A stretch of 64,000 nucleotides of DNA. Origin: Desulfonauticus sp. (GTDB lineage Bacteria > Desulfobacterota > Desulfovibrionia > Desulfovibrionales > Desulfonatronovibrionaceae). This document shows, one piece after another, positions 47,785 through 50,452 of the stretch (position 1 is the first letter of the stretch; every line of letters begins with the position of its first letter). The notes beneath the pieces were generated by a model. The model did no database searches. It was not told the DNA's origin and worked only from the letters and a program-made list of their open reading frames with translations. The translations under genes and the position numbers were made by a program. The stretch spans positions 1 through 64,000 of the forward strand of contig JAUZRP010000038.1 in assembly GCA_030950395.1 (NCBI GenBank), read 5' to 3'.

Positions 47785-47814
47785 TTGACTAATGCTTGGA
47801 GCTTGTGCTAGAAG
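47785..47814 (+). promoter_or_regulatory. possible promoter of the F0 operon
   Basis: TTGACT (47785-47790) and TAGAAG (47809-47814) are 18 nt apart, which would place the transcript start near 47821, directly before the Rex-like palindrome. The -10 is weak. Confidence 0.4.
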
Positions 47815-47821
47815 GCAGGCA

Positions 47822-47839
47822 TTGTGAATGTTTGAACAA
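47822..47839. promoter_or_regulatory. candidate Rex operator at the F0 operon
   Basis: TTGTGAA-TGTT-TGAACAA fits the Rex consensus TTGTGAA-WWWW-TTCACAA at 12 of 14 arm positions, with exact 7-4-7 spacing. It lies 29 bp before the atpZ start and is enclosed in a longer palindrome (GGCATTGT and ACAATGAGCC). The rex gene is 2 kb downstream. Confidence 0.6.
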
Positions 47840-47868
47840 TGAGCCTATTTTAAAAGGAGCTTATTTTT

Positions 47869-48120
47869 GTGTTCTTTCGCAAAAAAGACAGTGAAACCTG
47901 GCAAAATCTAAGCAAAGCCAGCCTTATCGGCATACATTTAGTATCTTGCACTTTTGTAGGCTTGCTGTTGGGATATTATTTAGACAAATGGCTAAATACC
48001 AGGCCATGGTTTCTGATTATTTTTCTTTTATTTGGCATTGCGGCGGGATTTAAAAATATGTATCTAGAAACAAAAAAAATTCAAAAAACAGATAAAGATG
48101 AAAGTAATCAAAACAATTAA
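47869..48120 (+). CDS. atpZ: AtpZ/AtpI-type ATP synthase accessory protein
   Basis: An 83-residue membrane protein with two helices (about 20-42, GIHLVSCTFVGLLLGYYLD, and 47-66, RPWFLIIFLLFGIAAGF), the AtpZ pattern. AtpZ and AtpI assist c-ring assembly or ion supply in many bacteria. The start is GTG, 8 nt after AAAAGGAGC. Its 3' end overlaps atpI by 23 bp. First gene of the F0 operon. Confidence 0.85.
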   Translation: MFFRKKDSETWQNLSKASLIGIHLVSCTFVGLLLGYYLDKWLNTRPWFLIIFLLFGIAAGFKNMYLETKKIQKTDKDESNQNN

Positions 48121-48523
48121 CCGAAAAATAGAAAAATTTTTATATATTAAGGGATTTACAATAGAAGGTTCACGCCTTTTAATGCGCAATCAAATTTATT
48201 TGGCTCTAGTTGGTTGTATAATATCTAGTTTTTTAGGGTATAGTTGGGGGTGTAGTTTTATTATAGGGGCTATACTTGGTACCCTTAATTTCTATTTTTT
48301 AGCTAAATTAGTGCAAGAAATTATTTTTATAAAAAAAGGAGCTTTATCTGTTCTGCTTTTTCAGTTTTATTTAAGGTTGGGGCTAACAGGTGTGGTATTG
48401 TTTTACGTCATAGTCTATTTGAAGGCTAATATAGTTGCCTTGTTAGGTGGCTTAAGTATAGTTGTTGTAAACGTTTTACTTTACGGATTAACTTTAATGG
48501 GGGAAAAATTTAAGGAGGCATAG
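48098..48523 (+). CDS. atpI: ATP synthase subunit I
   Basis: A 141-residue membrane protein with four hydrophobic helices (about 30-50, 53-72, 85-105, 110-130), the AtpI topology; IIGAILGTLNFYFLAKLVQE is a recognisable block. It overlaps atpZ by 23 bp and ends 3 bp before atpB, so it is part of the F0 operon. AtpI is thought to be a c-ring assembly chaperone. Confidence 0.8.
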   Translation: MKVIKTINRKIEKFLYIKGFTIEGSRLLMRNQIYLALVGCIISSFLGYSWGCSFIIGAILGTLNFYFLAKLVQEIIFIKKGALSVLLFQFYLRLGLTGVVLFYVIVYLKANIVALLGGLSIVVVNVLLYGLTLMGEKFKEA

Positions 48524-48526
48524 TCT

Positions 48527-49231
48527 ATGGCAGAAGGATTACATCCTATTTTCTTATTAGAAGAAGCAGTGAAAATGATCGGTTTGGTGGATGCCCATGG
48601 TCACAGCTTAATTCCCAACAACGTGCTTTATGCCTGGGCAATAATGGGATTTTTATTTTTCCTGGGGTGGTTAGCCACCAAAAACATTTCCATGGTGCCG
48701 CGAGGGTTGCAAAACTTTTTCGAGTTTCTTATAGGCTCTCTGGAAGATTTTGTGGTCACCAACATGGGAGAAGAAGGCAGGAAGGTCTTTCCGGTATTGG
48801 CCACATTATTTATCTTTATTTTCTGTTGCAACGTGGCAGGTTTAATCCCAGGTGGAGATTCTCCAACTGCTAACGTCAATACTAACGCGGCAATGGCTAT
48901 TTTTGTTTTCTTATATTACAATTATTGGGGTATAAGAAAACACGGGATAAAATACATCAAACATTTTATGGGTCCGTACTGGTGGTTAGCTCCCATTATG
49001 TTTCCTATCGAGCTTGTCAGCCACTTAGCTAGACCTCTCTCTTTAACTTTGCGACTTTTTGGAAACATCATGGGTGAGGACATAGTTTTGGCCTTACTCT
49101 TTATTTTAGCGCCAATAGTATCTACTTTACCCATGTACTTTTTATTTTTATTAGCTGATTTTATTCAGGCGTTTGTATTCTTTATGCTCTCTATGTTATA
49201 CTTAAAAGGTGCATTTGAAGAAGCTCATTAA
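48527..49231 (+). CDS. atpB: ATP synthase a subunit
   Basis: A 234-residue F0 subunit forming the ion half-channels against the c ring. The essential arginine lies in LARPLSLTLRLFGNIMGED. Five or six hydrophobic helices are visible. AAGGAGG precedes the ATG. Between atpI and atpE, as expected. Confidence 0.96.
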   Translation: MAEGLHPIFLLEEAVKMIGLVDAHGHSLIPNNVLYAWAIMGFLFFLGWLATKNISMVPRGLQNFFEFLIGSLEDFVVTNMGEEGRKVFPVLATLFIFIFCCNVAGLIPGGDSPTANVNTNAAMAIFVFLYYNYWGIRKHGIKYIKHFMGPYWWLAPIMFPIELVSHLARPLSLTLRLFGNIMGEDIVLALLFILAPIVSTLPMYFLFLLADFIQAFVFFMLSMLYLKGAFEEAH

Positions 49232-49280
49232 TCTTGGGGGAAATTGGTCTTTGACCAAATAAAATAATAGGAGGTTTCTT

Positions 49281-49604
49281 ATGCGTAAGGTTTTATTGGT
49301 TATGTTAAACACTGTAGCTTTTATTGTTATGGCAAGTGTAGCTTTTGCTGCAGAAGCTGCTCCTGAAGTCATCTCTATGACATCTATTGCTACTGCTTTA
49401 GGTATGGCTCTTGCTGCTGCAGGTTGTGGTATCGGTCAGGGCTTAGGTCTAAAAGCAGCTTGTGAAGGTACTGCCAGAAATCCAGAGGCAAGTGGTAAAA
49501 TCACCGTTACCATGTTAATTGGTTTGGCTATGATCGAGTCTTTGGCTATTTATGCCTTGGTTGTTAATTTGATTCTCTTGTTTGCTAATCCTTTCTTGGG
49601 CTAA
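49281..49604 (+). CDS. atpE: ATP synthase c subunit with Na+-type residues
   Basis: A 107-residue F0 rotor subunit. Residues 1-24 look like a cleavable signal peptide (ending VAFAAEA). The two ring helices are about 33-58 and 73-103, with the loop ARNPEA. The ion-binding carboxylate is Glu86 in AMIESLAIY. Gln53 (CGIGQG), Glu86-Ser87 and Tyr91 match the Na+ ligand pattern Q-E-S-Y of the Ilyobacter tartaricus c ring, with the same 33-residue spacing between Gln and Glu. AGGAGG precedes the ATG; a strong terminator follows. Confidence 0.95.
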
Positions 49605-49618
49605 TTGGTTAGTTCAAA

Positions 49619-49658
49619 ACACAAGCAAGGGGGAACTTCCCTTGCTTGTGTTTTTTTT
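49619..49658 (+). terminator. terminator of the F0 operon
   Basis: ACACAAGCAAGGG and CCCTTGCTTGTG form a long stem followed by eight T's, 15 bp beyond the atpE stop. A classical strong Rho-independent terminator that separates atpE from rex. Confidence 0.93.
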
Positions 49659-49795
49659 ATCTTTTAAACAACTATTCTAATCCATTTTAATTTACGTGCT
49701 TATCCTGATAAGCTCCCAAAATGTAGGGGAGAGGAATTAATTTATTGCTCCTTGTTCTGCACCTAACAAAAAAATCCTAAAAATTAATCTAAATT

Positions 49796-50452
49796 ATGTT
49801 AAACTTAAAAAACGAAAAAATCCCTCGGGCTACCATTGGCAGATTATCTTTATACGTTCAACAATTGGAAATTTTAGAGCAACAGGGGGAAAAGGTTATT
49901 TCGTCTGAAAAGTTGGCCAAGATTTGCGGAGTTAATCCTTCCCAAATCAGGAAAGATCTGGCTTACTTTGGAGAATTTGGGGTTAGAGGGGTAGGATATT
50001 ACATTTACGAGTTAAAGCAAGCCATAAAAAAAAGTTTGGGGCTAGATAGAATCTGGAAAGTAGTGTTAGTAGGAGTAGGAAATCTTGGCCGTGCTTTGCT
50101 TCGTCACAATGTATTGATAAAACGCGGCTTTATTGTCGTGGGCGCTTTTGATTGCGATCCTTTTAAAATAGGAGAAGAAATAGCAGGATTAGAAGTAATG
50201 TGCTCCAGCAACTTACCTCAGAAAATAAAAGAACTGGATGCCGAAATAGGTATAATTACCACTCCCCAAGAACGAGCCCAAAGAGCTGCCAATTATTTAA
50301 TAAAAGGGGGTATTAAAGGCATCGTAAATTTTGCTCCTGCCCGGATAACCGTTCCCTCCCATATCGTGGTGGAATACGTTGATTTTATAAATCATTTATT
50401 TTCTACTGCCTTTCAAATCTCTCTTAACCAAGCCAAAGGAATGTATTCTTAA
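49796..50452 (+). CDS. rex: redox-sensing transcriptional repressor Rex
   Basis: A 218-residue dimeric repressor that reads the NADH/NAD+ ratio. The winged-helix domain (about 1-85) has ATIGRLSLYVQQLEIL, VNPSQIRKDLAYFGEFG and GVGYYI; the Rossmann domain (about 86-210) starts VVLVGVGNLGRALLRH. Length is normal. No strong ribosome site is visible before the ATG. It lies behind the F0 ATP synthase terminator. Rex is known in sulfate reducers to control energy genes; two Rex-like sites lie at both atp operons here. Confidence 0.95.
   Translation: MLNLKNEKIPRATIGRLSLYVQQLEILEQQGEKVISSEKLAKICGVNPSQIRKDLAYFGEFGVRGVGYYIYELKQAIKKSLGLDRIWKVVLVGVGNLGRALLRHNVLIKRGFIVVGAFDCDPFKIGEEIAGLEVMCSSNLPQKIKELDAEIGIITTPQERAQRAANYLIKGGIKGIVNFAPARITVPSHIVVEYVDFINHLFSTAFQISLNQAKGMYS

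Follow-up and report, generated by a model that had tools for sequence, protein, structure and literature searches.

The window analysed here, a 64,000-nucleotide stretch from Desulfonauticus sp. (contig JAUZRP010000038.1), carries the F0 genes of ATP synthase in the order atpZ-atpI-atpB-atpE, followed by rex, a gene for a redox-sensing transcriptional repressor (Table 1). The initial annotation had singled out a Rex-like inverted repeat in front of atpZ and proposed that Rex directly represses the F0 operon when NADH is high. The locus thus raises the questions of whether this repeat is an operator of Rex, which other genes the same Rex would control, and in which direction they would respond to NADH.

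The repeat is present and agrees with the 18-bp Rex consensus TTGTGAA-N4-TTCACAA at 12 of 14 arm bases with the exact spacing; both deviations are in the right arm, which reads TGAACAA instead of TTCACAA. Read by eye, the promoter consists of a -35 element TTGACT (47785-47790), an 18-bp spacer and an extended -10 element TGC-TAGAAG (47806-47814), and is absent from the output of a consensus promoter scanner. From the positions of these two elements the repeat is predicted to begin at about +1 and to span about +1 to +18, in line with the earlier claim that it starts at the predicted transcript start. Overlap with a promoter or transcript start is a trait of Rex operators, and it is found here relative to the conserved -35 and -10 elements, the start itself being a prediction. 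The neighbour divergent to atpZ is a gene for a LonB-like AAA protease (45043-47472, minus strand), which occupies the same place in many of the relatives' loci.

Table 1 Features of the window relevant to the predicted Rex circuit
Feature	Position	Strand	Basis
F1 operon atpF'-F-H-A-G-D-C	26580..32404	-	ORF order and sequence; OSCP/atpH family match
Rex-like site TTGAACAAAAATTCACAT (- strand), downstream of the F1 promoter	32425..32442	-	matrix rank 3
Second, upstream Rex-like F1 site ATGTGAAATTCCTAACAA (- strand)	32550..32567	-	matrix rank 2
Predicted promoter of atpZ-I-B-E	47785..47814	+	-35, spacer and extended -10, from sequence
Predicted Rex operator TTGTGAATGTTTGAACAA	47822..47839	+	consensus, lineage matrix, conservation
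atpZ (ATPase_gene1, PF09527)	47869..48120	+	Pfam
atpI (ATP-synt_I, PF03899)	48098..48523	+	Pfam
atpB, F0 subunit a (PF00119)	48527..49231	+	Pfam
atpE, F0 subunit c (PF00137)	49281..49604	+	Pfam
Intrinsic-terminator-like hairpin, strong, between atpE and rex	49616..49654	+	terminator scan
rex, redox-sensing transcriptional repressor	49796..50452	+	Pfam; NCBIfam NF003993

The identification of rex is firm. The protein scores 311 bits against the NCBIfam model for Rex (cut-off 217), has both the N-terminal winged helix (PF06971) and the C-terminal Rossmann domain (PF02629) above cut-off, and matches the Rex of Thermotoga maritima (5zz5) with E=1.7e-49. Residues R52, K53, R64 and G65 are invariant in 132 of 132 Rex sequences (redundant loci included) and are the counterparts of R48, K49, R60 and G61, which are described as DNA contacts in T. 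maritima (PMC8836258). The tyrosine that stacks on the nicotinamide (Y100 in T. maritima) is replaced by H104 in the Desulfonauticus protein; across the lineage, position 104 is a histidine in 109 and a tyrosine in 23 of the 132 sequences (again with redundant loci), and it is one sensing-site residue, by itself no family-defining trait. The Rex of D. vulgaris reportedly responds to NADH, going by the title of Christensen 2015.

The gene lies next to the F0 operon not only in the window but across the order, in the relatives' loci. The initial annotation was right to place rex next to the F0 operon; since a strong terminator-like hairpin stands between atpE and rex, rex is probably transcribed separately from atpZ-I-B-E. 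The region upstream of rex (49605-49795) contains no Rex-like site (best score 6.8 bits). The other two genomes of the genus have such sites directly upstream of rex (TTGTTAAAAAATTCACAC and TTGTTAAAAATTTCACAC), so autoregulation of rex may have been lost here.

The plain Rex consensus alone cannot single out the atpZ site in the genome. At up to three mismatches it gives seven matches in the window against about eight in shuffled sequence, and 236 in the whole genome, where the reversed control gives 205; at up to two mismatches the atpZ site is one of 19 genome matches. Counts this close to the control are what a chance likeness to the consensus would give. That explanation is contradicted by the order-wide conservation of the site and its rank with a lineage-specific matrix, both presented below, and we regard it as scarcely credible.

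The matrix was built from 38 distinct sequences found upstream of sat and upstream of rex in relatives, and includes no atpZ site and no site from the Desulfonauticus genome. Its sites were chosen with the external consensus at up to three mismatches: 41 of 48 sat-upstream regions contributed (the remaining seven had no match at this threshold and were omitted), as did the 29 of 56 rex-upstream regions that have a Rex-like site, the other 27 contributing none. Scored in this way, the atpZ site ranks first among 63,983 positions of the window, with 17.5 bits, and it also ranks first with matrices built from the sat sites or the rex sites separately. The score is better than that of random intergenic sequence, as none of 1000 shuffles of the intergenic region reached it with the combined matrix (one of 1000 with the sat-only and none with the rex-only matrix). 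Shuffles of the whole window held an equally good position in 2 of 100 cases with the combined matrix, 2 of 100 with sat only and 7 of 100 with rex only. For a 64-kb window the matrix score by itself is therefore strong but not overwhelming evidence, and the weight of the argument lies in the comparison between genomes.

We compared the region upstream of atpZ in 47 loci, the window and 46 relatives (one further locus was too short). In 41 of them no more than 5 of 500 mononucleotide shuffles reached the score of the best matrix match, the six weaker loci being L036, L037, L040, L043, L090 and L101. The best site lies 36-41 bp after TTGAC in 42 of the 47 loci. In L031, from the same genus, the top match is at another position, although TTGTGAATGTTTGAACGC occupies the expected place. 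Four loci of genus g12 (L095, L096, L097 and L099) have CTGTGATAATTTGAACAG or a similar sequence as their top match in front of atpZ, at another distance from TTGAC. Of 199 genomes of the order, 98 contain a combined pattern of TTGAC, a gap and TTGTGAANNNNTKMACRN, and 2 contain the reversed control; the matches are only partly assigned to genes. Some of them, for example those ending in TTCACA in genus g28, resemble other promoters. Among the 80 named loci, several of Desulfovibrio, Mailhella and Bilophila retain rex but lack a good site in front of atpZ. Taken over the order, the predicted promoter-operator layout is conserved.

The two halves of the operator are unequal. One is a perfect TTGTGAA, while the second, taken in the outward direction, reads TTGTTCA in the window and, in many relatives, TCGTGCA. 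Sites upstream of rex in other families, such as ATGTTCAATTTTTCACAA in G020, carry a similar TTGTTCA half, which argues that the Rex of this lineage accepts the weak half.

The same motif recurs upstream of sat, a point absent from the initial annotation. When no mismatch is allowed, TTGTGAANNNNTKMACRN occurs twice in the entire 2.2-Mb genome, once at atpZ and once upstream of sat (C24:33655, 62 bp from the sat match at C24:32394-33593, minus strand). When this pattern was written, atpZ sites had been viewed and so had the G001 and G004 sat sites; the sequence upstream of sat in the Desulfonauticus genome was viewed only later. G001, G002 and G004 likewise have two matches each, at sat and atpZ; in G002 the atpZ promoter and rex are on separate contigs, and the match at C1:1912 is assigned to atpZ because of its near-identity to the G001 sequence. 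G005 has four matches, including one at atpZ and one upstream of its F1 operon; going by coordinates, one of the four is downstream of its sat, and one is unassigned. The reversed control of the pattern gives zero or one match per genome. A second sat homologue in the Desulfonauticus genome (L104) has no good site upstream (five mismatches) and may not be the dissimilatory sat. Relative to the gene, the sat and atpZ copies are in opposite orientations, which fits a site for a dimer and not an RNA leader.

At a distance of 15 kb from the atpZ site, the region in front of the F1 ATP synthase operon holds the second- and third-ranking matrix positions of the window. With the exception of atpH, the genes of this operon are what we take them to be from the order and sequence of the ORFs. 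The site nearer to the operon has the form TTTGnACnAAAWTTCACAW, and a counterpart aligned by its TTCACA half is present in 29 of the 29 loci in which subunit b' was located, with a left half that varies somewhat. The farther site overlaps the end of the preceding ORF, and its counterparts in the other two genomes of the genus score 19.9 and 19.5 bits. On the minus strand of the upstream region (32405-32567), the F1 promoter is located between two Rex-like sites 125 bp apart. The initial annotation did not mention this pair, which lies in the same window.

These additional sites bear on the idea that the conserved block at atpZ belongs to the core promoter or to the initially transcribed region and is read by RNA polymerase alone. 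Its near-fixed distance from the conserved -35 and -10 elements would be expected on that account. The atpZ block is, however, an imperfect inverted repeat, and the same motif occurs at sat, F1 and rex in opposite orientation and at other distances, making recognition by the polymerase alone very unlikely.

A regulator of the CRP/FNR family such as HcpR could also read the operator, instead of or together with Rex, and respond to nitrosative stress or another signal. HcpR1, a member of this family, binds TGTGA-N6-TCACA, an inverted repeat in the same 18-bp frame as the Rex operator; Rex sites are stated to be identical to HcpR1 sites, and the D. desulfuricans sat promoter is reported to be bound by HcpR1 with low affinity (PMC5701242). 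The Desulfonauticus genome has HTH_Crp_2 matches and encodes a 228-aa CRP/FNR-type protein. Compared with TGTGA-N6-TCACA, the atpZ site is exact in its left half and differs at two of five bases in its right half (GAACA). Two genomes weaken the view that such a protein is the necessary reader, because the atpZ site persists in them although no such regulator was detected: HTH_Crp_2 gives no match in G009 (97% complete), and in G031 (84% complete) neither HTH_Crp_2 nor cNMP-binding gives one. The gene next to the F0 operon throughout the order is moreover rex, and the Rex-like sites in front of rex itself, in 29 of 56 loci of relatives, also speak against it. We therefore consider a CRP/FNR-type reader unlikely, and a dual reading by Rex and a CRP/FNR-type protein possible.

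The preferred reading is that 47822-47839 is the predicted operator of the Rex encoded at 49796-50452, and that this Rex would exert a repression released by NADH on the F0 operon and also on F1 and sat; we put its probability at about 0.86. It is built on the site itself, on its matrix score and conservation, on its rarity in the genome, where only the sat copy shares its pattern without mismatch, and on the DNA-contact residues of Rex, from which we infer binding of Rex, repression, the response to NADH and the position of the transcript start.

The comparison strongly supports the operator proposed in the initial annotation, but the direction given there for NADH is inverted. Rex-NAD+ is described as the form that binds and represses, and NADH as shifting the DNA-binding domains so that Rex leaves the DNA (PMC8836258); in Streptomyces avermitilis, Rex is likewise reported to dissociate at a higher NADH/NAD+ ratio (PMC5355995). 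Because NADH releases Rex, high NADH should derepress F0, F1 and sat. At a low NADH/NAD+ ratio, a dimer of Rex-NAD+ would cover the atpZ-I-B-E promoter from about +1 to +18. Lying over the transcript start, it would presumably block RNA polymerase. With plentiful electron donor, NADH would rise, bind Rex and remove it from the DNA, and F0 would be made. The same Rex would be expected at both F1 sites and at sat, so that F0, F1 and sat should all go down at low NADH/NAD+ and up when electron donor is plentiful. With Rex common to the three, ATP supply and the ATP-costing activation of sulfate would therefore rise together.

A more specific version of this circuit, which we offer tentatively for Desulfovibrionales, adds that F0 and F1, as split operons, and sat would all be repressed by a single Rex, that the lopsided operators would be selected and that the F1 sites may act by looping. 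Each operator would pair a perfect half with a weak one, selection having kept the latter conserved across families, and in Desulfonauticus the 125 bp between the F1 sites, with the promoter inside, could be bridged by looping.

The analysis changes the expected sign of the NADH response and brings F1 and sat into one predicted circuit with F0. It points to a testable link between the NADH/NAD+ ratio and the production of ATP synthase in sulfate reducers; most worth following are the asymmetry of the operator, the pair of F1 sites and the grouping of F0, F1 and sat.

Control of an ATP synthase operon through a Rex operator is a known kind of control, and the present case of it is well supported. 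In the literature searched, which did not extend to the likeliest sources (Ravcheev 2012 and Christensen 2015), we found no statement of Rex control of atp operons in Desulfovibrionales. Rnf and many sulfate-reduction genes of this order are said to be under Rex (PMC4215793, citing Ravcheev et al. 2012), and the Rex regulons of that study, obtained by comparative genomics, concern the same lineage. The nearest experimental case is D. vulgaris Hildenborough, of the same order, in which Rex (DVU_0916) is reported to repress sat, loss of Rex raising the sat transcript ~11-fold and loss of the operator ~4.6-fold (PMC7531388). The operator is at the promoter in both systems, and the sat site of the Desulfonauticus genome fits the same pattern as the atpZ site; the predicted target in the window is the F0 operon. 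In Streptomyces avermitilis, Rex is reported to repress atpIBEFHAGDC, as demonstrated by EMSA, ChIP and DNase I footprinting and by increased expression in a rex mutant (PMC5355995). A Rex operator in an ATP synthase promoter is common to both organisms, predicted in our case. Unlike the single atp operon of S. avermitilis, for which protection from -50 to -22 is described (PMC5355995), F0 and F1 are separate in Desulfonauticus, and the predicted F0 operator, one half-site of which is weak, covers about +1 to +18.
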